The notes beneath the pieces are model-generated. The model was given only the letters and a program-made list of their open reading frames with translations, searched no databases and was not told the origin of the DNA. Position numbers and translations under genes: made by a program. 64,000 bases of DNA, taken from Humidesulfovibrio mexicanus. GTDB taxonomy: Bacteria > Desulfobacterota > Desulfovibrionia > Desulfovibrionales > Desulfovibrionaceae. The stretch covers positions 124,001 to 188,000 of the forward strand of contig NZ_FZOC01000002.1 of the NCBI RefSeq assembly GCF_900188225.1, read 5' to 3'. Position 1 is the first letter of the stretch. Each line of letters starts with the position of its first letter. Below, piece after piece: positions 6,268-19,469 of this stretch.

Positions 6268-7110
6268 CTACAGCACAGCCAGGCGCAGCAGCAGGTTGCC
6301 CGCCACCTGACGGCGGTAGTCCGCGCTGGCGCGACTATCGTCGATGGGCTTCACTTCATGGCTGACGATCTTGGCCGCGCGCGTCAGGGCCGAGAGTCCC
6401 AGGCGCTCGCCGACCAGGGCCGTCTCGGCCTCCGGGCAGCGCCACACTGTCGGCCCCACGGAGCCCCAGGCCAGGCGCGCCTCGGCCACGCGGCCGCGCT
6501 CCAGCCGAACCAGTGCGGCCAGGCTCACCACGGCCACGGCCAGCGCGCCCCTGCGCCCCACCTTCTCGAACCGTCGTATCTGAAAGCCTTGCGTCGGCCG
6601 CGCGCGAACCGCGGTGAGCACCTCGCCCGGAGCAAGGCGCGTGCGCCCAGGCCCGGTGATGAACTCCGAAAGGGGCACGCGCCGTAGGCCCGAGGCCGAG
6701 GCCAGCTCGACCTCCGCGCCCAGGGCCAGCAACGGCGGCAGGGCGTCGCCCGCGGGCGAGGCCGTGCAGATGTTCCCGCCCAGGGTGCCCATGTTGCGGA
6801 TGGGCGGAGAGCCCAGTTCGCAGAGCGCGGCGCAGAGTTCCGGCAACTCCGAGCGCACCAGCGGGTGGGCCAGCAGTTCCGCATGGGTGCAGGCCGCACC
6901 CAGGCCCAGCGCCCCGCAGGGGCGGCGCTCCACACCGTGCAGGGCGGAGATTCCCCCAAGGCGCACCAGGGTTTCGGGCCGCGGCTCTCCGCGCTGGTCC
7001 GCCTGGCGCAGCCGCACCAGCAAATCGGTTCCTCCGGCCATGATCTTTGCGCCGGGCTGGGCCAGGGCCTCGAAAAGCTCCGGCAGGTCGCGAGGAGCAA
7101 GCACCCTCAT
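6268..7110 (-). CDS. Molybdenum hydroxylase FAD-binding subunit (CoxM/XdhB-like)
   Basis: FAD subunit (280 residues) of a three-subunit xanthine-dehydrogenase-family molybdenum hydroxylase, cytoplasmic. It passes electrons from the 2Fe-2S subunit to an external acceptor. FAD-binding motifs are visible: IMAGGTDLL near residues 23-31 and IRNMGTLGGNI near 100-110, followed by the CO-dehydrogenase flavoprotein C-terminal domain. It lacks room for the extra 4Fe-4S insertion of 4-hydroxybenzoyl-CoA reductase beta subunits, so it is an ordinary CoxM type. Last gene of the six-gene operon; its ATG overlaps the TGA of the 2Fe-2S gene by four bases. Substrate unknown. Confidence 0.9.
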   Translation of the reverse strand: MRVLAPRDLPELFEALAQPGAKIMAGGTDLLVRLRQADQRGEPRPETLVRLGGISALHGVERRPCGALGLGAACTHAELLAHPLVRSELPELCAALCELGSPPIRNMGTLGGNICTASPAGDALPPLLALGAEVELASASGLRRVPLSEFITGPGRTRLAPGEVLTAVRARPTQGFQIRRFEKVGRRGALAVAVVSLAALVRLERGRVAEARLAWGSVGPTVWRCPEAETALVGERLGLSALTRAAKIVSHEVKPIDDSRASADYRRQVAGNLLLRLAVL

Positions 7111-7589
7111 TGCGCGCCCCGCTTCTTGGCCTCGCGTTGTTCCTGCGCGGCGGCCTGCACCGCGTCCACGATCATGACGTAGCCGGTGCAGCGGCACAGA
7201 TTGCCGGAGATGGCCCGGCGCGTCTCTTCCCGCGTGGGCTGGGGATTTTCCGCCAACAGCGCGGCCGCGGCGATGGTCATGCCCGGCGTGCAGAAGCCGC
7301 ACTGCACGGCCCCGTGGTCGGCGAAGGCGCGCTGGAGGGGATGCGGGGCCTCGGGCGTGCCCAGGCCGCTTGCGGTCATGATGGCGCGGCCCTCCAACTG
7401 GACGGCCAGCATCAGGCAGGAGAGCTTGTGCACGCCATCCACCAGCACGGAGCAGGCCCCGCACTCGCCCGTGCCGCAGCCTTCCTTCACGTCCAGGGCG
7501 CCCAGCCCGCGCAGCAGGTCCACGGCGCGCGCGTCCGGGGCCGCGTCCACGGTCATGGGGCGTCCGTTGAGCAGAAACGATATGGTCAC
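7107..7589 (-). CDS. Molybdenum hydroxylase 2Fe-2S subunit (CoxS-like)
   Basis: A 160-residue electron-transfer subunit with two 2Fe-2S clusters. The plant-ferredoxin-type cluster is ligated by CGTGECGAC and a later Cys, and the second by CGFC and CRC in the helical C-terminal half (the usual CoxS pattern). Translation starts at GTG 7589, which overlaps the stop of the large subunit by four bases (GTGA). This start gives the canonical N-terminus (ISFLLNGRPM). The tight overlaps on both sides imply translational coupling and equal stoichiometry of the three subunits. Confidence 0.93.
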   Translation of the reverse strand: MTISFLLNGRPMTVDAAPDARAVDLLRGLGALDVKEGCGTGECGACSVLVDGVHKLSCLMLAVQLEGRAIMTASGLGTPEAPHPLQRAFADHGAVQCGFCTPGMTIAAAALLAENPQPTREETRRAISGNLCRCTGYVMIVDAVQAAAQEQREAKKRGAQ

Positions 7590-9919
7590 TCGGTCCTCCG
7601 GGGCTTGGTGGCGAGAAGCCGGAGCACGCGCTCCGGGGTGAACGGCGGCCTGCGCAAGAGCCGCAGCGCGGTGGTCGAGGGCTTTCCGCCCAGGGCATGG
7701 CGCAGGGCGGCGGCGACGGCCGGAACAGGGCCGCTCATGCCAACCTCGCCAACCCCCTTGAGGCCGCCTGGGCCGGATTCTTCGCAGCCTTCGACAGCGT
7801 GGGACTCCATGTCCGGCAGATCCAGGGCCGTGGGGATGAGGTAGGTGGACAGGTCGCCGGTCAGGATGCGCCCGTCGTCCAGGAGGAAGTCCTCGAACAA
7901 GGCCAGACCCAGGCCCTGTGCCGCGCCGCCGTGGGCCTGCTGGTCGAAGCCCTGGCGCGAGAGCACGCGGCCGCCGTCGGTGACGGTGACGTAGTCGCAC
8001 ACGCGCACCTGCCCGGTGAGTTCGTCGGCCTCGATGCGCACAAGGTGCGCGGCGTAGGCGAAGATGAGGTGCGGAAAGCCGATGAGAAATCCCCGTGCCG
8101 TGGCCGAGGCCTCGCGCGCCACGGGCATGAGGAATTCTCCCACGGCGATGCGGTCGTCGCGCGGGAGGAAGCGCGCCAGCGCGTCGAGGGCGATGGATGC
8201 GCCCGTGGGCTTGTGGACCACTTTCCCGGCTTCGAGCGCCAGCCCGTCCAGGGTGTCGCGCATGAGCGCCATGGTCGCGCGGGCCAGCAGCTTGGCCTTG
8301 AGGCCTGCGCACGCGCGCAAGAGCGCGTTGCCGAAGGTGTAGGTGGTGCGCCCGGCGGCGGAGGAACCGGACGGGTGGCAGCGTTCGGTGTCGGGCATGA
8401 CCAGGCCGATGGCCTGCGCCTCCTGGTTCAGCTCCTGGGCGGCCAGCCGGGCGAAGGCCGAGGTGTTGCCCTGGCCCATGTCGGCCACGGAGGCATAGAC
8501 CAGAAAGCCGCCTTCCTCGGTCAGCTCCACCTTGGCGATGGCCATGTCCGGCAGGCCCCGGCCGTAGCCCATGCCGTTGAACACCGCGGCCAGGCCAACA
8601 CCCCGCCGGGTGAAGGCCGGGGCCTCCTTGCGCCACTGTTCGCGCCCGGTCCACAGGGGGTGGGCGGCCAGGGCGTCCAGGCAGGCTGGCAGTTCGGCGG
8701 AGCCCATGCGCACCCCGCAGCCGTTTTCGTCGCCGCTGCGCAGGGCGTTCTTGCGCCGCAGTTCAAGGGGGTCCATGCCGAGCTTGGCGGCCAGCTCGTC
8801 CATGAGGCCCTCGAAGGCCGGGCTGGCCTGCACCACGCCGAAGCCCCGGAAGGCCCCGGCGATGGGGTTGTTGGTGTAGACGCAACGGCCCTCCACGCGC
8901 AGGCTGGGCACCCGGTACGGCCCGCAGGCGTGCTCCATGGACAGTTCCATGACCTCGCCGCCCAGGTGGGCGTAAGCCCCGGTGTCGTACAGCATCTCGC
9001 AGGTGAAGGCCGTGAGCGTGCCGTCCTCCTGCGCGCCCAGGGCGCAGGAAAGGCGGGCGGCGTGGCGCTTGAACCCGGCCAGCATGGACTCCTCGCGGTC
9101 CCAGGCCATGCGCACGGGTCTGCCCCCGGCGTAGAGCGCGGCCAGGGCCAACAGGCACTGCACCGTGGCTCCGTCCTTGCCGCCGAAGCCGCCGCCCATG
9201 TGCGGCGCGCGGATGCGGATGGACAGGGGGTCCAGCCCCAGGGCCGCGCCGATCTCGAAGCGGTCGCGGAAGGGCGACTGGGTGCTCAGGACCATCTCCA
9301 GGCCGCCATCGGGCAATTGTCTCGCCACGCCGCACTGCGTCTCCAGAAAGGCGTGTTCCTGCACGGGCGAGAAGAACTCTCCGCGCACGCTGACCGGCGC
9401 GGCCTTGAGCTCCTTCCTGGCGTCGCCCTTTTTGATCACCGCGTGCATGAGCAGGTTGCCGTCCTTGCGGTCGGGGTGCACCAGCGGCGCGCCGCGCTTG
9501 AGGGCGGCCTCCGGGTCGAAGACGCCGGGCAGGGGCGCAAGCTCGGCGCGCATGGCCGCCAGGGCGGCGCGCAGAGCGGCCGGGCTTTCGGCCAGCACCA
9601 GGGCCACGGGATCGCCCGCATGACGGATGCGCTCCCGGCAGAGCACGGGCTGGTCCTTGTGCACGATGCCGTGGCGACCCTGGCCGGGCACATCGGCCGC
9701 GGTGAGCACGCGCAGCACGCCTGGCACGGCCAGGGCGGCTTGGCGGTCCACGGCCACGATCCGCGCGTGGGCCATGCCCATGGACGCGCCCGGTCGGTAG
9801 GCTCCGGCGTGCAGACAGCCTTCCGGCATGTCGTCAAAGGCGTACCGTTCCGCGCCTGCGGCCTTGGAAAGGGCATCGGCCCTGGGAACGCGGGCGGGGG
9901 GGGAGAGAATGTCGGCCAT
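7586..9919 (-). CDS. Molybdenum hydroxylase large (molybdopterin) subunit
   Basis: Catalytic subunit (777 residues) binding the molybdenum-pterin cofactor. The aldehyde oxidase/xanthine dehydrogenase a/b hammerhead domain (about 15-120) precedes the cofactor-binding domain with PHMGGGFGGK near 235-245 and AFRGFG near 348-353. The catalytic base is visible as the Glu of GVGEVGMSG at about residue 725. The family hydroxylates aromatic heterocycles or aldehydes with water, or reductively dehydroxylates aryl-CoA. The context of an AMP ligase and ACP upstream suggests a carrier-bound acyl substrate here, which would be unusual; this is inference from the operon only. It starts six bases after the upstream gene stops. 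Confidence 0.9.
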   Translation of the reverse strand: MADILSPPARVPRADALSKAAGAERYAFDDMPEGCLHAGAYRPGASMGMAHARIVAVDRQAALAVPGVLRVLTAADVPGQGRHGIVHKDQPVLCRERIRHAGDPVALVLAESPAALRAALAAMRAELAPLPGVFDPEAALKRGAPLVHPDRKDGNLLMHAVIKKGDARKELKAAPVSVRGEFFSPVQEHAFLETQCGVARQLPDGGLEMVLSTQSPFRDRFEIGAALGLDPLSIRIRAPHMGGGFGGKDGATVQCLLALAALYAGGRPVRMAWDREESMLAGFKRHAARLSCALGAQEDGTLTAFTCEMLYDTGAYAHLGGEVMELSMEHACGPYRVPSLRVEGRCVYTNNPIAGAFRGFGVVQASPAFEGLMDELAAKLGMDPLELRRKNALRSGDENGCGVRMGSAELPACLDALAAHPLWTGREQWRKEAPAFTRRGVGLAAVFNGMGYGRGLPDMAIAKVELTEEGGFLVYASVADMGQGNTSAFARLAAQELNQEAQAIGLVMPDTERCHPSGSSAAGRTTYTFGNALLRACAGLKAKLLARATMALMRDTLDGLALEAGKVVHKPTGASIALDALARFLPRDDRIAVGEFLMPVAREASATARGFLIGFPHLIFAYAAHLVRIEADELTGQVRVCDYVTVTDGGRVLSRQGFDQQAHGGAAQGLGLALFEDFLLDDGRILTGDLSTYLIPTALDLPDMESHAVEGCEESGPGGLKGVGEVGMSGPVPAVAAALRHALGGKPSTTALRLLRRPPFTPERVLRLLATKPRRTE

Positions 9920-9925
9920 GGGCGG

Positions 9926-11032
9926 CTACTCCGGCACGGGCAGAATGGTCACTTCAGGCGCGCCGTGTTCGCGGCTGGCCCGGTGCATGTCCGCCACCAC
10001 CTGGACGGCCAGGGCATTCATCTCCGGAGTGGCCAGGCGCAGCCCGGCCAGGGTGGCCGGTTCAAGGAAGCGTTGGGCCATGATGCCGTCCGGCCCTGGG
10101 CCTGTCTCCCCGAACCACAGCGGCATGAAGGCGCAGTAAAAAAATCCGGCCCGGCGCAGCAGCTCGGCTGCGTGGCCGGTCCAGGCCTCGCCCAGGCACA
10201 AGAACAGTTGCACCACCACGGCCCGGTCCGCTTTTCCGGCCTCCAGCTCCTCGGCCAGGCGCGCGGCAAAGTCCGCGCCGATGCGGGTCACCGTGACGCG
10301 GCGCACCCCGGCGAAGGCGAAATGCCGCGACTCAAGCACCGTGCGGGCCTGGGCCGGAACCGGGGCGTCGCCTGGCGCGACCTCGCGGTGCAGCGGCCAG
10401 CAGCCCAGAAGCGCCTGCACGTTCTGCCCCCAGAGGCCGGGCAGGAACAGGGGGCCGGGCGTGATCGTGTCCACGCGCTGGGCGTACAGGCAGCTGGCGC
10501 GGCCGGTGACGCCCTCGCCCGCGTAGGCGCTCTCCGGCATCAGGCCCGGCTCCAGCCCGCAGGCGACGAACCCCGAGCCGTGGATCATCTTCTGCGTCGC
10601 CATGTGGTGGCACACTGCCTCGCCGTATATGCCATCCACGCCGTCCAACTGGCCGAAGAGGTTCTCCACTGCGAAGCGGTGGATGCGGAAGGCCGCGAAG
10701 CTTTGGCGATAGGCCTTGTCCACCATGCCCTGCCCGTATTCGTAAAAGCGCGGGTTGGGCGGCGAGCTCCGGTAGATGGCCATGTGTCCGGCGATGGCGC
10801 CGTCCGCGGCGCACGCCACGATGGTGTGCGTGCTTCCGGACCGGTTGGCTTCGATGAGCAGTTCGGGCACGTAGGGCTCGTCCACGGGGTAGGTGTCCCC
10901 GTAGGTCTGGTAGAACAGGCGGCCCACGCCGGGCGCGTCCTCGGGCCGGAACAGCCGGTATTCGAGCTTTTGTCCGGGGACAAGGTCCGCATACGAGGCC
11001 TTGATGGTTGCGAGAGCCTCGGCGCGGGTCAT
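9926..11032 (-). CDS. GNAT-like acyltransferase-family protein
   Basis: A 368-residue cytoplasmic protein. The N-terminal half (about 20-170) resembles a GNAT fold: a first strand/helix around EYRLFRPEDAPGVGRLF, a central strand AGHMAIYRS and an acyl-CoA-loop-like region YGQGMVDKAYRQ. The C-terminal half is not recognised. Encoded between the ACP (four-base ATGA overlap) and the molybdenum hydroxylase large subunit (six-base gap), so it is part of the same operon. A plausible job is transfer of the carrier-bound acyl group to or from another molecule, but neither donor nor acceptor can be read from the sequence. Confidence 0.65.
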   Translation of the reverse strand: MTRAEALATIKASYADLVPGQKLEYRLFRPEDAPGVGRLFYQTYGDTYPVDEPYVPELLIEANRSGSTHTIVACAADGAIAGHMAIYRSSPPNPRFYEYGQGMVDKAYRQSFAAFRIHRFAVENLFGQLDGVDGIYGEAVCHHMATQKMIHGSGFVACGLEPGLMPESAYAGEGVTGRASCLYAQRVDTITPGPLFLPGLWGQNVQALLGCWPLHREVAPGDAPVPAQARTVLESRHFAFAGVRRVTVTRIGADFAARLAEELEAGKADRAVVVQLFLCLGEAWTGHAAELLRRAGFFYCAFMPLWFGETGPGPDGIMAQRFLEPATLAGLRLATPEMNALAVQVVADMHRASREHGAPEVTILPVPE

Positions 11033-11265
11033 TGAGCTCCCTCGATGTGGCGGGCGAAGTCCTCAAGGGTCTTGAGGGTGAACGCGTGCTCGTCGTCCAT
11101 GGCCAGGCCGTAGCGCTCCTCCACAAGGGCGCAAAAGGCCGGGAAGTCAACGGAATCGACGCCCTGGCGCAGCAGGGGAGAGGAGGCGTCCAGGTTCTTG
11201 GCCAGTTCGGGCTTCACCCCGGCTTCGGCCAAGAGCGAACGCAATTCGTCCAAGGATATCCGCAT
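11029..11265 (-). CDS. Acyl carrier protein
   Basis: A 78-residue phosphopantetheine carrier. The attachment serine is S38 in the DSV motif (QGVDSVDF), at the start of helix 2 as expected; the protein is acidic and helical. It departs from housekeeping AcpP (DSLD.VEL) and is not next to fatty-acid synthesis genes, so it is a dedicated carrier for this operon. It sits 19 bases downstream of the AMP ligase and overlaps the GNAT-like gene by four bases. The most economical reading is that the ligase loads an acid onto this ACP. Confidence 0.88.
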   Translation of the reverse strand: MRISLDELRSLLAEAGVKPELAKNLDASSPLLRQGVDSVDFPAFCALVEERYGLAMDDEHAFTLKTLEDFARHIEGAQ

Positions 11266-11284
11266 GTCGGTCGCTCCTTGCGGG

Positions 11285-12790
11285 TTACGGCTGGCGCAGG
11301 CGGAAACGCTGCACCTTGCCCGTGGGGGTCTTGGGAAGCTCGTCCAGGAAGCGCACGCGGACCGGGCACTGCTGCGGGGGCAGCAGGCCACGGGCGTGGC
11401 GCAGGATGTCCTGGGCGAGCTGGGGATCCGCGGCGAAGCCGGGGCGCGGCACAACATGCGCGCAGGGGCGCACCAGCCCGTCCACGGCCAGGGCCGCAAC
11501 GGCGCAGTCCAGCACGGCCGGGTGCGTGCGCAGGGCTTCCTCCACCTGTACGGGGGAGACGAAGTGCGCCCCGACCTTCAGCATGTCGTCCTTGCGGCCT
11601 CTGTGAGAATACACGCCATCCTCGCGCACGTAAACATCCCCGGTTCTGAGCCAGCCGTCGGGCAGCATGGTCTCGGCGGTTTTGTCCGGCCGTTTCCAGT
11701 AGGCCCGGCAGATTCCCGGCCCCTGGATGAGCAGCTCGCCCGGCACGCCATCGGGCGCATCGGCCCCGGCGTCGTCCACGATGCGGACCGTGAAGCCGGG
11801 CACGGGCGTTCCGCTTGCGCCGCAGCGCACCGCGCCGGGGCGGTTGGAAAGGAACAGGTTGAACGCCTCGGTGGAGCCTATGCCGTCCAGAAGCTCCAGC
11901 CCCGTCGCGCGGGTCCATTCTCGGCACAGGCCTTCGGGCAGGGCCTCGCCGGCGGAGTAGCACAGCCGCAGGGAGGAGAGGTCGTCGCCCTGGCCGGGAT
12001 CGTAGGCGCGCAGCAGCATGGCGTACAGGGTGGGCACGCAGAAGAACAGCGTGGGCCGGTGCCGGACGATGGCGGTGAACAGCTCCACCGGGCCGGGCTT
12101 TTCGGACAGCAGCACGGCCGTTGCCCCTGCGGCCAGCGGCAGGCTTACGCTGCAGATAAGCCCATAGGCGAAGGACAGCTTGCTGGCGGAGAAGAGCACA
12201 TCGCGCGGGCCGACCCCCAGGATCTCGGTGGCCCAGCCCCGAGTGGGCTCAAGCAGGTCTTCCTGGGCGTGGGGCACGCCTTTGGGGCGGCCCGTGGAGC
12301 CGGAGCTGTACAGCATGAAGCCTGGCGCTTCCGGCTGCGGGGCCTCGGCGTCGCATTCGGAGGAAAAGCCGGAAAGTCCCCAAGGGCCGTCCATGCTGCA
12401 CGGAAGGGCCAGCCTCAGGCCGGGGACCGTCCGTGCGACCTCCATGGCCGGGCTGTCCTCCGGGGCGATGAGCGCCGCTGCCTCGCAGTCCTGCAGAACG
12501 AACTTCAGGTCGTCCGGCGAAAGCTGCGCATGTACCGGCGTGGGGCAGGCGGAAAGCAGCATGGCCCCCAGGAAGGCCTTGACCGCGCCGAAGCTGTCCG
12601 GAAGGCAGAGCACCACCCTGTCTCCGGGGCGCACCCCGCGGGCGCGCAGCAGGTTGGCGAAACGGGCGGCGTCGGCCGCCAGGGCCTGATGGGTCAGGAC
12701 ATCGTCGCCGCAGAGATAGGCGGCCTTGTCCGGGTGCTGGGTCCGGTTGCGGTCCAGCAATTGCGCCGCGATGTTGGGGCGTGTGGCCAT
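11285..12790 (-). CDS. AMP-binding acid ligase, benzoate-CoA-ligase-like
   Basis: A 501-residue ANL-superfamily adenylating enzyme. The P-loop-like A3 motif YSSGSTGRPKGV, the later TGD and Y..GRKDD..K motifs and the C-terminal catalytic lysine region PKTPTGKVQRF are all present, so it should be active. Size and spacing are closest to benzoate/hydroxybenzoate-CoA ligases. The reaction is acid + ATP to acyl-AMP, then a thioester with CoA or, given the adjacent gene, with ACP phosphopantetheine. The start ATG 12790 follows GGCAGGAG; the upstream in-frame extension has no such site. First gene of the six-gene operon, divergent from the NMT1-like gene. Confidence 0.87.
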   Translation of the reverse strand: MATRPNIAAQLLDRNRTQHPDKAAYLCGDDVLTHQALAADAARFANLLRARGVRPGDRVVLCLPDSFGAVKAFLGAMLLSACPTPVHAQLSPDDLKFVLQDCEAAALIAPEDSPAMEVARTVPGLRLALPCSMDGPWGLSGFSSECDAEAPQPEAPGFMLYSSGSTGRPKGVPHAQEDLLEPTRGWATEILGVGPRDVLFSASKLSFAYGLICSVSLPLAAGATAVLLSEKPGPVELFTAIVRHRPTLFFCVPTLYAMLLRAYDPGQGDDLSSLRLCYSAGEALPEGLCREWTRATGLELLDGIGSTEAFNLFLSNRPGAVRCGASGTPVPGFTVRIVDDAGADAPDGVPGELLIQGPGICRAYWKRPDKTAETMLPDGWLRTGDVYVREDGVYSHRGRKDDMLKVGAHFVSPVQVEEALRTHPAVLDCAVAALAVDGLVRPCAHVVPRPGFAADPQLAQDILRHARGLLPPQQCPVRVRFLDELPKTPTGKVQRFRLRQP

Positions 12791-12928: not shown

Positions 12929-13966
12929 TTGAAAACAATGCGCAAAAGCGTCTTGCCTTCGGTTTGGTGCGCACGGCTGGCCTTGGCGCTGGCGGCGGTG
13001 CTGCTGTCTGTCTCGCAGGCCACGGCGGCCGGGCCGAAACGGGCCTCGCTGGTGCTGCAATGGCAGCCACAGGCGCAGTTCGCCGGGTTCTACGTGGCCC
13101 ACGAAAAAGGCTTCTACCGCGAGGCCGGGGTGGACCTGACACTGATCCCCGGCGGGCAGGATGTGGTGGCCTCGCGTCTGTTGGCCCAGGGGCAGGCCCA
13201 GTTCGCCACCATGTTTTTGGCCACCGGCCTGGAGCGCCACGCCAGCACGGCGGGCACGCCCCAGGCCGTGGTGCATCTGTCCCAGCTGGTGCAGCGATCG
13301 GCGCTCATGCTCGTCACCCGCGCCGATTCCGGCATCCGTGAGCCGCGCGACCTGCACGGCCGCCGCGTGAGCCTGTGGGACAACGAGTTCAAGCTCCAGC
13401 CCTTGGCCCTGTTCCGTCGGCTGGGCATCACCCCCGTGCTGCTGCCGCAATCCAGCACCATGGGATTGTTCCTGCGCGGCGGCGTGGATGCGGTTTCGGC
13501 CATGTGGTACAACGAGTATCACACCCTGCTGGCTGCGGGCTTCGAGCCGGAGGACCTGCGTTTGTTCTTTTTCCGCGACCTGGACCTGAACTATCCGGAG
13601 GACGGCATCTACACCCTGGAGAAGACCCTCAAGGCGGACCCCGCACTGTGCCGCGCCGTGGTGGACGCCAGCCTGCGCGGCTGGCGCTACGCCTTCGACC
13701 ACCCGGAGGAGGCGCTGGACATCGTGCTGGCGCGGATGCGCGAGGCCCATGTCCCGGTGAGCCGCGTGCACCAGCGCTTTATGCTGGCGCGGATGCGGGA
13801 CGTTATGCTGCCCTCGGCTCAGTGCGATGCTCCTTTTGGCGAGCTCAAACCGGAGGATTTCGACCGGGTGGCCCGTGACCTTGCCGCCTTCGGCACGCTC
13901 AAGGGCGCTCCTTCCTTTGCGGCCTTTTCCCGCGGCGGGGCCCTTGTGGCCGGGACTGCGCAATGA
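12929..13966 (+). CDS. NMT1/THI5-like periplasmic solute-binding protein
   Basis: A 345-residue exported binding protein: signal peptide of about 32 residues (cleavage near ATAAG), then the NMT1/THI5 type-2 periplasmic fold with LQWQPQAQFAGFYVAHEKGFYREAG, the family signature that binds pyrimidine-like or related small ligands in ThiY. TTG 12929 was chosen because AAGGGG lies ten bases upstream; ATG 12938, three codons in, is the alternative but its Shine-Dalgarno spacing is poor. There is no permease or ATPase gene nearby. Its stop overlaps the start of a membrane PP2C phosphatase (ATGA), so it probably acts as the periplasmic sensor partner of that phosphatase. Confidence 0.85.
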   Translation: MKTMRKSVLPSVWCARLALALAAVLLSVSQATAAGPKRASLVLQWQPQAQFAGFYVAHEKGFYREAGVDLTLIPGGQDVVASRLLAQGQAQFATMFLATGLERHASTAGTPQAVVHLSQLVQRSALMLVTRADSGIREPRDLHGRRVSLWDNEFKLQPLALFRRLGITPVLLPQSSTMGLFLRGGVDAVSAMWYNEYHTLLAAGFEPEDLRLFFFRDLDLNYPEDGIYTLEKTLKADPALCRAVVDASLRGWRYAFDHPEEALDIVLARMREAHVPVSRVHQRFMLARMRDVMLPSAQCDAPFGELKPEDFDRVARDLAAFGTLKGAPSFAAFSRGGALVAGTAQ

Positions 13967-15978
13967 CGGCGCTGTTCCCCTCCGGGCTTGCCCGGCGGCT
14001 TTCGCTGCTGGTGCTCACCGCCGCCGGCGCGGTGTTCGCGGCCATTGTGCTGGCCACGTATTTCATGGCCAGGGAGGCCCTTATGCGCCACGTGGAGACC
14101 GGGGCGCGCAACAAGGCCGCGTCCATCGTCTTCCGCATAGAGTCCGTGCTCGCGCCCATTCCCCGCGTGGTGGAGGGCATCATCTACGACATGGAGGACG
14201 GGCGCATGGGCGAGGCGGACATGTTCCAGCGCCAGCGCCGCGTGCTTCAGGACAACGACGCCCTCTACGGCACGGCCGTGGCTTTCGAGCCGGGCGGCTG
14301 GACGCCGGGCCGCGTGCATTTCGCGCCCTACACCTTCCGCTCGCCCCTTGGCCCCAAGGCGACCTTTCTGGGCGGTGAGAACTACCGTTACCACGCCATG
14401 GACTGGTACCAGATTCCCCGCGAACTGGACCGCATGGAGTGGAGCGAACCATATTTCGACGAAGGCGGCGGCAATTCCCTCATGGCCACGTGCTCGGCCC
14501 CGTTCCACAGGCTGGAGGGCGGCCGCGAGGTGGTCGCCGGGGTGGTCACGGCCGATGTCACCCTGGAGTGGCTCAAGCGTTTGGTGGCCGGAACCTCCGT
14601 GCTGGACACGGGGTATGCCTTCCTCATCACCAAAAACGGCACCTACGTGACCCACCCCTCGCCGGGCGTGGCCTTCAACGAGACCGTCTTCAGCCGGGCC
14701 GAGGAATACGGCGATGCCGCGCTGCGGACCATCGGCAAGGACATGGTCCGGGGCGGATCGCGTTTTGTGGAGGTGAAGAGCCACCACACGGGCAGGCAAG
14801 GCTTTCTGGTCTACGCGCCCCTGCCCACCACGGGCTGGTCGCTGGGCGTGTTCTACCCGCGCGACGAGCTCCTGGCGGATGTGAACCGCCTGGCTTTGAT
14901 CTCGGCCGGACTGGGCGGCGGCGGCTTCCTGGCCTTGGCCGCGCTCATCGCCTTCATCGCCCGGGGCATCACCCGGCCGCTGTCGCGCCTGAGCGCAGCC
15001 GCCCGCGAGGTGGCCGGCGGCAATCTCGACGCGCCACTTCCCGCGCCAGCGGCAAAAGACGAGGTGCGCGAACTGGCCGAGAGCTTCGGCCACATGCAGC
15101 GCTCCCTCAAGGACTACATCCGCGACCTGACCCAGGCCACGGCCAGCCGCGAGCGCATGGAGAGCGAACTGCGCATCGCCCATGACATCCAGATGGGCAT
15201 TCTGCCCAAGATATTCCCGCCCTTCCCGGACAGGAGCGACATCGACCTCTACGCCAGCCTGACCCCTGCACGCGAGGTGGGCGGCGACTTCTACGACTTC
15301 TTCCCCTGCGGGGACGACCAGTTCTGCTTCCTGGTGGGCGATGTATCCGGCAAGGGGGTGCCCGCAGCCTTTTACATGGCCGTGGCCAAGACCTTGATCA
15401 AGGCCGTCGCTGAAAGCCCGGCCTATGCGGGGCACCGCGTCTCCGACTATCTGCCCGGCGGGTTGACTCGGCCCGCGCGGCGCTGCGCCGATCCGGGCGG
15501 CATCCTCTCCCGCGCCAGCAACGACCTAGCCCAGGACAACGATTCGTGCATGTTCGTGACCATCTTTTGCGCCGTGCTGGACATGAAGACCGGCGAACTG
15601 CGCTATGCATCGGCCGGGCACAACCCGCCGCTGCTCCTGCGGGCCGACGGCCGCGCCGAGTATCTGGCCACCCGCCAGGAGCCGGTGGCCGGGGCCATGG
15701 AGGGCGTGGCCTATACGACCGACACCCTGACCCTTGCGCCCGGAGACGGGCTTGTCCTGTTCACCGACGGCGTCACCGAGGCCATGAACGCGGCCCAGGA
15801 ATTGTATGGCGAGGCCCGGTTGATGGCCCAGGCGCGGAGCCTGTACGGCCTGGACGCGCGCGCCCGCTGCGAGCATCTTTCGGCGGAGGTGCGCGCCTTT
15901 GCCGCAGGGGCGGAACAGTCCGACGACATCACCCTGCTGGCCCTGACCTATCAGGGGCCGGAGGACAGCCTGGGCTAG
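13963..15978 (+). CDS. Membrane PP2C (SpoIIE/RsbU-type) phosphatase with Cache and HAMP
   Basis: A 671-residue signalling phosphatase. Membrane segment 1 (about 14-34), periplasmic dCache-like domain (about 36-300), membrane segment 2 (about 310-335), HAMP (about 336-390), then a PPM/SpoIIE phosphatase domain (about 420-660) with the metal-binding motifs GGDFYDFF near 440 and DVSGKGVPAA near 460. It should dephosphorylate the STAS protein encoded 26 bases downstream. An insertion of about 25 residues (around GGLTRPARRC) before the conserved NDLAQDNDSCMFVT segment is longer than I recall in RsbU relatives. Translationally coupled to the binding-protein gene upstream. Confidence 0.9.
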   Translation: MTALFPSGLARRLSLLVLTAAGAVFAAIVLATYFMAREALMRHVETGARNKAASIVFRIESVLAPIPRVVEGIIYDMEDGRMGEADMFQRQRRVLQDNDALYGTAVAFEPGGWTPGRVHFAPYTFRSPLGPKATFLGGENYRYHAMDWYQIPRELDRMEWSEPYFDEGGGNSLMATCSAPFHRLEGGREVVAGVVTADVTLEWLKRLVAGTSVLDTGYAFLITKNGTYVTHPSPGVAFNETVFSRAEEYGDAALRTIGKDMVRGGSRFVEVKSHHTGRQGFLVYAPLPTTGWSLGVFYPRDELLADVNRLALISAGLGGGGFLALAALIAFIARGITRPLSRLSAAAREVAGGNLDAPLPAPAAKDEVRELAESFGHMQRSLKDYIRDLTQATASRERMESELRIAHDIQMGILPKIFPPFPDRSDIDLYASLTPAREVGGDFYDFFPCGDDQFCFLVGDVSGKGVPAAFYMAVAKTLIKAVAESPAYAGHRVSDYLPGGLTRPARRCADPGGILSRASNDLAQDNDSCMFVTIFCAVLDMKTGELRYASAGHNPPLLLRADGRAEYLATRQEPVAGAMEGVAYTTDTLTLAPGDGLVLFTDGVTEAMNAAQELYGEARLMAQARSLYGLDARARCEHLSAEVRAFAAGAEQSDDITLLALTYQGPEDSLG

Positions 15979-16004
15979 CATGGCCCGCAACGCAGGAGGA
16001 ATGC

Positions 16005-16337
16005 ATGGAGTTCACCGAAGTCAAGGAAGGGGCTTTTCTGGTTCTGGCCGTGTCCGGCCGCATGGACACCCTCACCGCTCCGCAGTTCGAGGCCCGCTGC
16101 CAAACCTGCCTTGAGGCGGGAAGCACGCGCTTGGTGGTGGATTTGGGCGGGCTGGAATACATCAGCAGCGCGGGTCTGCGCAGCATCCTGGCCGCGGCCA
16201 AGAAGCTCAAGGCCGCCGGGGGCGATCTGGCCTTTTGCTCCCTTTCCGGCATCGTGGCCGAGGTGTTCGCCGTGTCCGGATTCAACAAGCTTCTGCCGGT
16301 CTTCGCCGACAGGGCCCAGGCCCTGGCCAGAGCATAG
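16005..16337 (+). CDS. STAS-domain anti-sigma-factor antagonist
   Basis: A 110-residue single STAS domain of the SpoIIAA/RsbV type. The phosphorylatable serine lies in the conserved segment DLGGLEYISSAGLRSI (S57 or S58). When dephosphorylated by the upstream phosphatase it would bind the RsbW-like kinase encoded next. ATG 16005 follows CAGGAGGA; an ATG at 16001 is in another frame. Confidence 0.92.
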   Translation: MEFTEVKEGAFLVLAVSGRMDTLTAPQFEARCQTCLEAGSTRLVVDLGGLEYISSAGLRSILAAAKKLKAAGGDLAFCSLSGIVAEVFAVSGFNKLLPVFADRAQALARA

Positions 16338-16347
16338 GAGCAGGAAC

Positions 16348-16851
16348 GTGCGGCGTTTGCGCCTGCCCGCCCAGGAGGAGAGCCTCCCCATCTTTCGCCA
16401 GCTGGCGCTGGACGAAGCCACGCGCGCGGGGCTTGACCCGGCCGCCATGCAGCGGGTGGAGCTGGTGCTGGAGGAGGCGCTGGTGAACGTCATCCGCCAT
16501 GCCTACACGCCGGATGCGCCGGAGCCCCTGGCCGAACTGGCCTGTGGCGTGGACGAAGGCGGCGTGTTCCGGTTGCGGCTCACGGATTGGGGCGCGCCCT
16601 TCGATCCCGTGGCGTCGGCGGGCGCAGGTCCTGGCGCTTCTTTTCCCGGCGCGGAAGCCGGGCAGCCTGGGGAGCACGATCTGCACGCGCAGCTGGAGTC
16701 CAACCTGGGGGCCGACCTGGAACACCGCCTGCCCGGCGGCATGGGCCTGTTCCTCATCCTCACCATGAGTCATCCCGCCTATGCGCGCCAGGGCGATGCC
16801 AACGTGCTCACCCTGAGCTTCCCCCCGGAATCGGGCGGTTCCAAGGCCTGA
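16348..16851 (+). CDS. RsbW-like serine kinase / anti-sigma factor
   Basis: A 167-residue GHKL ATPase. The N box is VLEEALVNVIRHAY (near residues 34-47), the G1 box is LTDWGAPFDP and the G2 region is HRLPGGMGLFLI near 130, as in SpoIIAB/RsbW kinases. The expected role is phosphorylation of the upstream STAS protein and sequestration of an unidentified target. It starts at GTG 16348 after AGGAGCAGGA. Between the G1 and G2 boxes it carries a Gly/Pro/Ala-rich insertion. Its last 27 codons are duplicated downstream in the 212-bp tandem repeat, leaving the intact stop in the first copy. Confidence 0.9.
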   Translation: MRRLRLPAQEESLPIFRQLALDEATRAGLDPAAMQRVELVLEEALVNVIRHAYTPDAPEPLAELACGVDEGGVFRLRLTDWGAPFDPVASAGAGPGASFPGAEAGQPGEHDLHAQLESNLGADLEHRLPGGMGLFLILTMSHPAYARQGDANVLTLSFPPESGGSKA

Positions 16852-17192
16852 TTCCGGCCCCCCTGCCTGGCTGCATGGCCGTCCGGCGCCCTGCACGGCC
16901 CAGGGCGTCCCGCTGTCATGCCCTTTGGGGCCTCCCTGTGCGGGAGGCCCAAGAATGGCGCCAGTGTTCCACAACCGTGAGTCATCCCGCCTATGCGCGC
17001 CAGGGCGATGCCAACGTGCTCACCCTGAGCTTCACCTCGGAATCGGGCGGTTCCAAGGCCTGATTCCGGCCCCCCTGCCTGGCTGCATGGCCGTCCGGCG
17101 CCCTGCACGGCCCAGGGCGTCCCGCTGTCATGCCCTTTGGGGCCTCCCTGTGCGGGAGGCCCAAGAATGGCGCCAGTGTTCCACAACCGTGA
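16769..17192. repeat. Perfect-phase tandem duplication, 2 x 212 bp
   Basis: Copy one is 16769-16980 and copy two 16981-17192, directly adjacent. By eye they differ at only two nearby positions (CTTCCCCCC against CTTCACCTC, near 16823 and 17035). Each copy contains the last 27 codons and stop of the RsbW-like gene plus about 130 bases of 3' sequence including a GC-rich hairpin (GGGCCTCCC...GGGAGGCCC). The second copy has no start codon of its own, so it is probably non-coding debris, but the terminal hairpin is now present twice. Confidence 0.95.
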
Positions 17193-17217
17193 CGCGCGCG
17201 TTTCTTCGCAACGCCGC

Positions 17218-17247
17218 TTGCCCGGAAAAAGAAATGTGTGCTATGAC
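17218..17247 (+). promoter_or_regulatory. Possible promoter of the chemoreceptor gene
   Basis: TTGCCC (17218-17223) and TATGAC (17242-17247) with an 18-base spacer lie about 110 bases upstream of the chemoreceptor start. Together with the duplicated 3' sequence this fills the 506-base gap between 16851 and 17358; nothing else is recognisable there. Weak call from consensus only. Confidence 0.3.
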
Positions 17248-17357
17248 CTACGTACTTGGGTCCAAGGCCTAATGCGCAGTAAGTATTACGCCGATGAAAC
17301 TGGATATTTTCCCGGTCTACGCAATAGTGCGGCCCCGGCAATCCGTCAGGAGGATTC

Positions 17358-19469
17358 ATGATGCCACGCTCCATCAAGACCCGGCTCGTCCTGGGACTCG
17401 TCTCTGTTATCGCGATCATTCTCGCGGGGATTATGGTCATCGTGGCGTTCAGCTTCAGCAGCCAGTCACGGGAAGCCTTCCTGCGGGCGGCCAAGGGCGA
17501 GATGTCCCAGCTGGACTACGCCATCACGCTGTTTTTGGACGAAAGCATGAAGAACGCCGACATGCTGGCCAAAGCGCCTGCCATGCAGCAATTGGGCGAG
17601 GTGACCACCAACCACCTGTCCACCACGGAGAAGAGCAGCGCCAAGGTGGCCGAGGGAGACGCGGCCGGACGCAGGATCGTGGACTTCTTCGCCGCCGTGC
17701 AGGCGTCGCACCCGGCCTACGTGGAGGTGTTTCTGGGCAACGAGCGCGGCAGCTTCGTCAGTTCGCTGGAATCGTCCGCAATGCCTGCCGGGTACGACCC
17801 ACGCAAGCGGCCCTGGTACTCCGAGGCGAAGCCCGTTGTGGACAAGGCCACCCTTTCCAAGGCCTACATGTCCACCACAGGCGAGGCCGTGACCAGCGCA
17901 GCGCGCACCGTGCTCCGCAACGGGACCGTTGTCGGCGTGGTGGGCATCGACATTTCCCTCAAGAATCTTACCGAACTGGTCAAATCAGTGAAACTGGGCG
18001 AGTCCGGCTATGTGGCGCTGGTGCAGGACGACGGCGTGGTCCTGGCCGATCCGCGGCACGATGCCTTCAACTTCAAGAAGGTTGGGGAGATCGAGTCCAA
18101 GCACCTGGACGCGCTGTTCAAGATGGAGGCCGGGAGCCAGGAGTTCGAGATCGACGGGAAGAAGTATCTGGGCATCGTGTACACTTCGCCCAAGACCAAG
18201 TGGAAGCTCATGGGCTTCATGGAGCTTTCCGAAATCAACGCCCCGGTCAAGAGCACCCTTTATCTTCTCGGCTTTGTGGGCATCGTCAGCCTTGCCGTCA
18301 TGGCCCTGGCCATTTGGCTGGTGAGCAACAACTTCATCCTCAAGCCGCTTTCCGCCGTGTCCAGCTTTGTGGCGGGCATCGCCAAGGGCGTGTACGACCA
18401 CCGCATCGGCCACCAGCGCCAGGACGAGATCGGCGCCATTTACGATGCCCTCAACACCACCGCGGGCGTGCTTGAACAGAACATCAAGGACATTCAGGCC
18501 AAGACCCTGGAGGCGGAGGAAAAGGCCCGCGCCGCCGAACTGGCCAAGGCCGACGCCGATGAAGCCAGGCGCAACGCCGAGCACGCCAAGAGCGAGGGAA
18601 TGCTTGCCGCGGCGGGCAAGCTGGAGGCCATCGTGGGCATCGTGTCCTCGGCGTCCTCGCAGCTTTCCGCACAGATCGGCGAATCCAGCCGCGGGGCGGA
18701 GCGCCAGGCCATGCGCATCACCGAAACCGCCACCGCCATGGAGGAGATGAACGCCACCGTCCTTGAGGTGGCCAAGAACGCCGGGCAGGCGGCCGAGACC
18801 TCCGACGGCGCGCGCAAGAAGGCGCAAAGTGGCGCGGAGGTCGTGCACAAGGTCATGAGCGGCATGAGCGACGTGCAGCAGCAAACCGCCAAGCTCAAGG
18901 TCGACATGGGCACCCTTGGCAAACAGGCCGAGGACATTGGGCGCATCATGACCGTCATCACCGACATTGCCGACCAGACCAACCTGCTGGCGCTCAATGC
19001 CGCCATTGAGGCCGCGCGCGCGGGCGACGCCGGGCGCGGCTTCGCCGTGGTGGCCGACGAGGTGCGCAAGCTGGCGGAGAAGACCATGACCGCCACCAAG
19101 GAAGTGGGCGAGGCCATCAGCGCCATTCAGCACGGCACGCGTTCCAACGTGGAGGGCGTGGACAAGAGCGTGCACCTCATTACCGAAGCCACCACCCTGG
19201 CCGACCAGTCCGGAAAGGCCCTGCAGGAGATCGTCCACCTGGTCGACGCCGCCTCGGACCAGGTGCGCTCCATCGCCACCGCCAGCGAGGAACAGTCCGC
19301 CGCCAGCGAGGAGATCAGCCACTCCATCGAGCAGGTGAGCTCCATCGCCAACGAGACCTCACAGGCCATGGGCGAGGCGGCCAAGGCCGTGGAGGAGCTG
19401 GCGCGCCAGGCCCAGATCCTCAATTCGCTCATTGTCCAGCTGCGCGAGGAGGCCGGACAGGTCGCCTAA
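17358..19469 (+). CDS. Methyl-accepting chemotaxis protein with dCache sensor
   Basis: A 703-residue transmembrane chemoreceptor. Membrane segment 1 (about 8-30), double-Cache periplasmic domain (about 35-295, including the motif DPRKRPWYSEA typical of amino-acid or organic-acid sensing dCache_1 domains), membrane segment 2 (about 300-322), HAMP (about 323-375), coiled coil, and the signalling hairpin tip [18 protein letters not shown] near residues 538-555. It talks to CheA/CheW encoded elsewhere. Two in-frame ATGs (17358, 17361) follow CAGGAGGAT; the first is used. A terminator follows at 19489. Confidence 0.95.
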   Translation: MMPRSIKTRLVLGLVSVIAIILAGIMVIVAFSFSSQSREAFLRAAKGEMSQLDYAITLFLDESMKNADMLAKAPAMQQLGEVTTNHLSTTEKSSAKVAEGDAAGRRIVDFFAAVQASHPAYVEVFLGNERGSFVSSLESSAMPAGYDPRKRPWYSEAKPVVDKATLSKAYMSTTGEAVTSAARTVLRNGTVVGVVGIDISLKNLTELVKSVKLGESGYVALVQDDGVVLADPRHDAFNFKKVGEIESKHLDALFKMEAGSQEFEIDGKKYLGIVYTSPKTKWKLMGFMELSEINAPVKSTLYLLGFVGIVSLAVMALAIWLVSNNFILKPLSAVSSFVAGIAKGVYDHRIGHQRQDEIGAIYDALNTTAGVLEQNIKDIQAKTLEAEEKARAAELAKADADEARRNAEHAKSEGMLAAAGKLEAIVGIVSSASSQLSAQIGESSRGAERQAMRITETATAMEEMNATVLEVAKNAGQAAETSDGARKKAQSGAEVVHKVMSGMSDVQQQTAKLKVDMGTLGKQAEDIGRIMTVITDIADQTNLLALNAAIEAARAGDAGRGFAVVADEVRKLAEKTMTATKEVGEAISAIQHGTRSNVEGVDKSVHLITEATTLADQSGKALQEIVHLVDAASDQVRSIATASEEQSAASEEISHSIEQVSSIANETSQAMGEAAKAVEELARQAQILNSLIVQLREEAGQVA

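Follow-up and report, generated by a model that had tools for sequence, protein, structure and literature searches.

In altemicidin/SB-203208 biosynthesis, an adenylate-forming ligase (SbzB or SbzL) loads a stand-alone acyl carrier protein (ACP; SbzG or SbzK), and a GNAT transfers the acyl group to a hydroxyl group (SbzC) or an amine (SbzI). In vitro, SbzL charges SbzG or SbzK, whose acyl group SbzI then attaches to an amine (PMC6331615). FeeM-type N-acyl amino acid synthases, named in the same paper, are GNAT-type enzymes that take an acyl group from an ACP, and in the AlmE-AlmF-AlmG system a ligase loads a small carrier protein and a third protein transfers glycine onto lipid A (PMC12930378). 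Here, we describe a comparable arrangement in the sulfate-reducing bacterium Humidesulfovibrio mexicanus, a six-gene operon in which the genes of a ligase, an ACP and a GNAT-like protein are followed by those of a molybdenum (Mo) hydroxylase. The operon lies in the window, by which we mean the whole 64,000-nucleotide stretch of DNA that was analyzed, corresponding to positions 124001-188000 of contig C2 in the 3.52-Mb genome (G000). Its likeness to the altemicidin/SB-203208 system is one of gene kinds and not of established GNAT kinship. The latter is a Streptomyces cluster that handles aminoacyl or sulfamoylacetyl groups, and the words 'molybd-' and 'xanthine' are absent from its text (PMC6331615). 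From the FeeM-type synthases, the window GNAT-like protein differs in that it is matched by no Pfam or NCBIfam model. FeeM-type synthases use long-chain acyl groups and amino acids, and the transferase of AlmE-AlmF-AlmG is of another kind than GNAT.

We consider it slightly better than an even chance (probability of about 0.53) that the operon is an optional aryl-acid cassette joined to a conserved and apparently older core cluster, in which the GNAT would acylate the core product from the ACP and the Mo enzyme would act on a small molecule. Ligase-carrier-GNAT transfer is already known. Here it is attached to a conserved Mo-hydroxylase cluster of Desulfobacterota, and no description of this gene set was found in the open-access PubMed Central literature, judged by titles and abstract openings.

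The six genes run on the minus strand from 12790 to 6268 in the order ligase, ACP, GNAT-like, CoxL-type, CoxS-type and CoxM-type; two intergenic gaps measure 19 and 6 bases, and the other three junctions are 4-base overlaps (Table 1). An earlier note, made from the sequence alone, had described this run, and family scans and coordinates confirm it, with the GNAT-like protein placed by its predicted structure; the co-expression that the note took as certain is presumed. The synteny is conserved: identical sets in identical order recur in nine other loci (L003, L004, L035, L037, L038, L039, L040, L053, and L060), and the arrangement is therefore more than chance. Judged by the GNAT, the closest named relatives are Humidesulfovibrio and Desulfovibrio assemblies. 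The wider comparisons are based on samples of 297 genomes of the order and 395 genomes of the phylum.

The ligase belongs over its full length to the benzoate-coenzyme A (CoA) ligase family, scoring 430.5 bits against the curated subfamily cut-off of 375.25 bits (TIGR02262), and its closest solved sequence is that of the benzoate-CoA ligase 2v7b. It differs from benzoate-CoA ligases (2v7b and 4eat) in its genetic tie to an ACP and in its pocket motif, GSTEAFNLF, which departs from GSTEMLHIF of 2v7b (EAFNLF for EMLHIF). The His of the latter motif has a role in the benzoate pocket. Given this difference in the motif, we call the substrate 'aryl' on the basis of family membership. The ACP exceeds the PF00550 cut-off (33.9 vs 20.8 bits) and has the DS motif, which identifies it as a carrier protein; the motif is also retained in the ACPs found beside ligases. 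The genome contains two matches to the phosphopantetheinyl-transferase family PF01648.

The presence of the ligase was closely tied to that of the ACP. Among 100 GNAT places, an ACP was present at 30 of the 31 that have a ligase within 8 kb (the exception is L064) and at none of the 69 others (Fisher p about 1e-24, kinship ignored). The three gene kinds of the SbzL-SbzG-SbzI type are thus side by side and linked in the window and at these 30 of 31 places. The counts use bit-score cut-offs (280 bits for the ligase), under which degenerate ACP domains and a 158-bit ligase match at L136 are not counted. The Mo large subunit lies within 8 kb of the GNAT at 23 of the 31 places with a ligase and at 34 of the 69 without. 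At the genome level, 107 genomes of the order have the GNAT (E<=1e-5). The large subunit (E<=1e-200) occurs in 52, every one of them belonging to the 107. A ligase (E<=1e-100) occurs in 26 genomes, of which 25 fall within these 52, the sole outsider being G068 with a weaker ligase of 359 bits. Apart from G068, then, at the cut-offs used a ligase is found only with the Mo enzyme, and the Mo enzyme only with the GNAT. A ligase at E<=1e-100 is absent from 27 of the 52 large-subunit genomes. The genomes truly lacking one are fewer than 27 because this threshold misses divergent ligases: at least four of the 27 hold a more divergent ligase-ACP pair, beside the Mo genes in G094, G153 and G155 and elsewhere in G236 (loci L065, L066, L076, and L092).

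In one GNAT clade of 17 rows, an ACP is fused to the N-terminus of the GNAT. The fused domain has the DS motif at 7 loci (L043, L044, L047, L049, L054, L056, and L058), is degenerate with loss of the Ser at 8 (L042, L045, L048, L050, L051, L055, L059, and L062), and is shortened or gone at 2 (L046 and L057). Counted in cis, a ligase and an intact ACP occur together at 8 loci of the clade, neither occurs at 9, and no locus is mixed. L059 has a ligase and a separate intact ACP along with a degenerate ACP-GNAT fusion; L055 has no ligase, and a mere fragment of a separate ACP gene (8465-8833) is left at the expected place beside its degenerate fusion. Among the nine loci without the pair, L048 is the second locus of a genome with a complete set at L056. 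L050 is from G102, in which ligase-ACP pairs lie on different contigs (L144 and L145). The remaining seven genomes (G078, G093, G095, G125, G183, G184, and G202) have no ligase at E<=1e-100, a threshold that leaves room for a divergent one, and all seven loci have the three Mo subunit genes. No open frame of the fetched loci was found to match both an ACP and a Mo subunit. As a separate observation, the two G102 pairs (L144:269-2030 and L145:270-2031) are placed near-identically at the starts of their contigs and are perhaps copies of a repeat that broke the assembly.

The same coupling was seen in a tree of the Mo large subunit, built from 59 rows chosen for carrying a Mo subunit, of which 41 were labelled in cis and 18 (including L050) were left unlabelled. 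The ligase state agrees with the ACP state in all 41 labelled rows, and the joint state changes 9 times in the best tree, at least 6 of them on starred branches. One genome (G139, row L086) has a ligase-ACP pair elsewhere (L146). Judged from these gene distributions, the ligase and the ACP are an accessory pair, coupled in presence and absence, and the fusions suggest that the carrier protein feeds the GNAT rather than holding a substrate of the Mo enzyme.

The Mo enzyme itself extends well beyond the order as part of a larger gene neighborhood. The recurring neighbors in the fetched loci are an MFS transporter, a HisC-like aminotransferase and a protein designated c5, which was found in 47 of the 395 genomes sampled across the phylum. 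Of these 47 places, 20 regions were fetched, one of them from the genome of the window, leaving 19 loci outside the order. They contain the aminotransferase (17), the large (15), small (16) and FAD (14) subunits, the MFS protein (9), the GNAT (7), SpoIIE (6), and NMT1 (3), and none of the 19 has a ligase or ACP above the cut-offs. The model of c5 (predicted local distance difference test, pLDDT, 92.8) consists of an RsbW/SpoIIAB-like domain at residues 6-137 (Z 14.9 to RsbW of 6m37), a GNAT domain at residues 154-303 (Z 15.3 to 2cnm), and a further part. An Asn is expected in the ATP-binding N-box of RsbW-like domains; at this position, placed by eye, it is replaced in 31 of 31 rows, and the domain is therefore probably not a kinase. 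The c5 copy of L066 (1881-3188) has no Pfam or NCBIfam match. In the window genome, c5 (C2:18125-19495) and the aminotransferase are located at C2:17011-19495 with an adjoining MFS gene, about 111 kb from the operon, and are 74% and 85% identical to their L035 counterparts, respectively. We rejected the idea that the core aminotransferase is the housekeeping HisC, as a separate, likelier HisC is present at C1:618545 (32% identical to the query). On this gene content, the Mo hydroxylase belongs to a conserved cluster with the HisC-like aminotransferase, the RsbW+GNAT protein, the MFS protein and often the GNAT. Locus L130 additionally has a GDSL-lipase-like gene (PF13472, 2501-3580) between the MFS and GNAT genes, with a relative in L134.

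The large subunit has the MoCoBD_1/2 and Ald_Xan_dh_C domains and the FAD subunit has FAD_binding_5 and CO_deh_flav_C; together with the 2Fe-2S subunit and the Glu of GxGE, these place the enzyme in the xanthine dehydrogenase (XDH) family. The Gln of STQ, the Asp after GGK, the Arg of RGFG and the Glu of GxGE are retained in all 57 module large subunits, with or without a ligase (the alignment has two further rows, L061 and L103, which fall outside the module). In XDH-family large subunits the Glu is catalytic and the Gln, Asp and Arg positions also have assigned roles. The window large subunit misses the cut-offs of all 13 NCBIfam models that it matched, including the xanthine dehydrogenase equivalogs pucD (519.6 vs 783.65 bits, its best NCBIfam score) and XdhA (405.2 vs 780 bits). 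Nicotinate dehydrogenase and the XdhABC/pucD-type xanthine dehydrogenases are likewise Mo-FeS-FAD hydroxylases with domains in common with the window enzyme, from which it differs in these scores and in having Asp for Glu after GGK, a position with a functional role in xanthine dehydrogenases. The earlier note was correct that the FAD subunit is without the 4Fe-4S insertion of 4-hydroxybenzoyl-CoA reductase: 1rm6_B aligns with it over residues 4-116 only, and residues 115-275 match positions 153-313 of TIGR03195, with about 35 residues missing between. The genome has one XdhC gene; some 9 kb away from it lies a stretch with 73% identity to part of the window Mo operon (G000:C1:746021-755766), probably a second Mo hydroxylase locus.

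The GNAT-like protein, which also had no sequence match in the PDB, was assigned by structure. Its AlphaFold2 model (mean pLDDT 96.1, predicted template modelling score 0.91) has a GNAT fold over residues 22-194, with a best Z of 12.9 (rmsd 3.1, 162 aligned residues) to 2j8m, and 573 chains match it in Foldseek at E<=0.001; the C-terminal half is barely covered by the structure search. The CoA-binding P-loop of GNATs (consensus Q/R-x-x-G-x-G/A), which is not fold-defining, was not recognized, as only 1 of 40 aligned relatives has Gly at R109+3. The 50 structure matches listed do not include FeeM, which excludes nothing. A second member of the family is encoded in the window genome within a 771-aa open frame (G000:C3:221621-222613). 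At L045:10880-12460 there is a 526-aa HATPase_c_2 + Acetyltransf_1 protein, and such proteins may also account for the many distant GNAT matches with open frames 500-580 aa long.

A second set of loci joins the same transferase family to aryl-acid enzymes in a different way. In five loci (Table 1), a fusion protein of about 1340 aa comprises a 4-coumarate-ligase-like domain, a GNAT, and an aromatic amino acid lyase (PF00221), as scanned for L068 and assigned to the others by similarity. The ligase-like domain of L068 scores 264 bits with TIGR02372, under its cut-off. We take this model to be tied to the photoactive-yellow-protein pathway, and that pathway was set aside for the fusion after a literature search found no matching paper. 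The fusion adjoins the three Mo subunit genes, in the absence of the ligase-ACP pair, in L068, L071 and L079; L063 and L072 carry it with no large subunit in view. The five fused GNATs together make up a starred clade, which shares a starred part of the GNAT tree with the core GNATs from outside the order and 28 of the 30 ligase-linked GNATs, the other two (L090 and L109) being in another part. Two aryl-acid supply routes therefore attach to one transferase lineage beside one Mo enzyme.

Sequence comparison establishes the composition of the cluster, the coupling of ligase and ACP, the fusion of ACP to GNAT, and the occurrence of the Mo enzyme in lineages that lack the pair. We infer the reactions and their order, as well as export and control, as follows. 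The core, consisting of the aminotransferase, the three-subunit hydroxylase, the MFS protein and the RsbW+GNAT protein, would make a small molecule, on which the Mo enzyme would work directly and not on an ACP-bound substrate. The ligase would adenylate an aromatic carboxylic acid and load it onto the phosphopantetheine arm of the ACP, and the GNAT would then take over the acyl group from the ACP and use it to acylate an amine (or hydroxyl) of the core product. The MFS protein would probably export the acylated product, a direction of transport that we assume, and the divergent operon probably responds to a ligand and regulates the cluster.

Several observations count against this proposal. 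The GNAT is retained in lineages without the ligase and ACP, and where the ACP is gone it may use acyl-CoA or have another role; no ACP is present in the lyase-fusion loci, L064 has a ligase and a GNAT without an ACP, and the ligase pocket departs from that of benzoate-CoA ligases as described above. L136, a core locus outside the order, does have a ligase match, the one below the cut-off, and at L154 and L155 the Mo genes occur with no aminotransferase, c5 or GNAT in view. At eight of the 31 GNAT places with a ligase, the large subunit is missing within 8 kb, and four of these places (L036, L041, L064, and L090) adjoin contig ends or a run of N. In long views, ligase-ACP-GNAT trios without the Mo enzyme within 8 kb were seen in L069, L070, L073 and L092, whose four genomes carry it elsewhere, and ligase-ACP pairs have no GNAT in view at L144, L145, L146 and L148 (L144 and L145 are at contig starts). 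Because such trios and pairs exist, the cassette may serve other products too. In addition, the trees were quick ones with support from the Shimodaira-Hasegawa-like approximate likelihood ratio test only, and the GNAT tree, which left out 1 of the 100 GNAT rows (<230 aa), was made without a mixture model and gave a long-branch warning.

It is unlikely, in our judgment, that the cluster is instead catabolic, with the MFS protein importing an aromatic compound or N-heterocycle, the Mo enzyme hydroxylating it, the aminotransferase and ligase processing it further, and NMT1-SpoIIE sensing it. Catabolic roles are common among XDH-family hydroxylases and benzoate-CoA-type ligases, and an NMT1-type binding protein and a SpoIIE sensor adjoin the module. 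However, a dedicated carrier and acyltransferase, the ACP-GNAT fusion and the lyase-ligase-GNAT fusion fit synthesis better, and no ring-cleaving or beta-oxidation gene is among the recurring neighbor families that were identified, which make up part of the neighbor clusters.

The earlier note had read the operon as one in which the Mo enzyme may hydroxylate (or reduce) an aryl acid on the ACP and the GNAT may then hand it on. The tight, colinear packing of the six genes and the occurrence of the Mo enzyme in nearly every ligase genome of the order speak for it. Two parts of it held: the ligase and ACP do form a pair, and the GNAT is the likely partner of the ACP, in view of the fusions and an in vitro precedent in another pathway. 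The notion that the Mo enzyme needs a tethered substrate did not fare as well. Large-subunit genomes lack the ligase in 27 of 52 cases at E<=1e-100, all 19 loci outside the order are without ligase or ACP above the cut-offs and the large subunit is present in 15 of them, seven genomes of the fusion clade lack both genes and keep the three Mo subunits, and the four marked residues are kept in lineages without the pair. The fusion partner of the ACP is moreover the GNAT and in no open frame a Mo subunit. An obligatory ACP-bound substrate is argued against because the Mo enzyme is present without ligase and ACP; lineages with the ACP may still differ. On this comparative evidence, hydroxylation of an ACP-bound substrate is disfavored, and we regard the reading as rather improbable. 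The earlier note had also named the regular separation of ligase and ACP from the hydroxylase as something that would refute its reading, and such separation was seen only in part: by genome the two stay together (25 of 26), but by locus they part at the eight places mentioned above and in the pairs without a GNAT.

We think it still more doubtful that the GNAT, instead of being a biosynthetic acyltransferase, serves regulation or sensing within a partner-switching system in the manner of the core RsbW+GNAT protein. The joining of an RsbW-like to a GNAT domain in c5 and the SpoIIE/STAS/RsbW operon divergent from the module would suit such a role. Against it, GNATs of the same family are fused to ACP and to 4-coumarate-ligase and aromatic-lyase domains, and the family is therefore tied to acyl chemistry. 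Finally, it is very improbable that the Mo enzyme dehydroxylates aryl thioesters in the manner of 4-hydroxybenzoyl-CoA reductase, a reading that was rejected. Among solved chains, the large subunit does score best with 1rm6_A (280.9 bits, with 3hrd second), but the 4Fe-4S insertion is absent, the score with TIGR03194 (364.1 bits) is far from the cut-off of 994.55 bits, and the marked large-subunit residues, typical of the hydroxylating XDH type, are kept.

Divergent from the module is the NMT1-SpoIIE-STAS-RsbW operon (12938-16851), which also adjoins it in L003, L004, L035, L037, L039 and several more distant loci. The open frames 16282-16974, 16779-17186 and 16991-17494 hold near-identical peptide stretches, which suggests that the DNA past the RsbW gene contains a short repeat (window 16779-17186). 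A more far-reaching version of the optional-cassette proposal, which we regard as a long shot, includes this operon and would apply to sulfate reducers and their kin throughout the phylum: the aminotransferase and Mo hydroxylase would build a hydroxylated N-heterocyclic amine, exchangeable cassettes of the ligase-ACP-GNAT or lyase-ligase-GNAT type would cap it with different aryl acids, the MFS protein would release it, and NMT1-SpoIIE-STAS-RsbW would read it back as an aryl-capped signal.

Table 1 Features of the window and of the fusion-bearing loci.
Feature	Position	Strand	Basis or remark
ANL aryl-acid ligase, benzoate-CoA-ligase family, 501 aa	11285..12790	-	TIGR02262; nearest solved sequence 2v7b; pocket motif GSTEAFNLF
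Stand-alone ACP, 78 aa, QGVDS motif	11029..11265	-	PF00550 33.9 bits
GNAT-fold acyltransferase (predicted) with extra C-terminal half, 368 aa	9926..11032	-	AlphaFold2 model, structure match
Molybdopterin large subunit (L) of XDH-family hydroxylase, 777 aa	7586..9919	-	PF02738, PF20256, PF01315
2x[2Fe-2S] small subunit (S), 160 aa, GTG start	7107..7589	-	PF00111, PF01799 (Fer2/Fer2_2)
FAD subunit (M), 280 aa, without the 4Fe-4S insertion of 4-hydroxybenzoyl-CoA reductase	6268..7110	-	PF00941, PF03450
NMT1/THI5-like periplasmic binding protein, first gene of divergent operon	12938..13966	+	Homologue in L125 is PF09084
dCache-HAMP-SpoIIE phosphatase	13963..15978	+	PF02743, PF00672, PF07228
STAS-type anti-sigma antagonist	16005..16337	+	Judged by eye; counterpart in L125 is PF01740
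RsbW-type HATPase_c_2, start codon not fixed	16342..16851	+	PF13581 64.4 bits on open frame 16111-16851
Fusion of about 1340 residues	L068:7533-11585, L071:8081-12091, L079:6999-11033, L063:8198-12166, L072:8959-12945

The Mo-hydroxylase loci amount to a natural experiment: where the ligase is found, so is the carrier, and where one is missing, so is the other, a joint state that has changed at least six times on well-supported branches; the acyl-tailoring step is therefore separable from the core chemistry. The locus also brings in a GNAT family whose carriers are either stand-alone or fused, and its member in the window is matched by no Pfam or NCBIfam model. Taken with the spread of the core across the phylum, these observations point to a conserved metabolite pathway in anaerobic Desulfobacterota.

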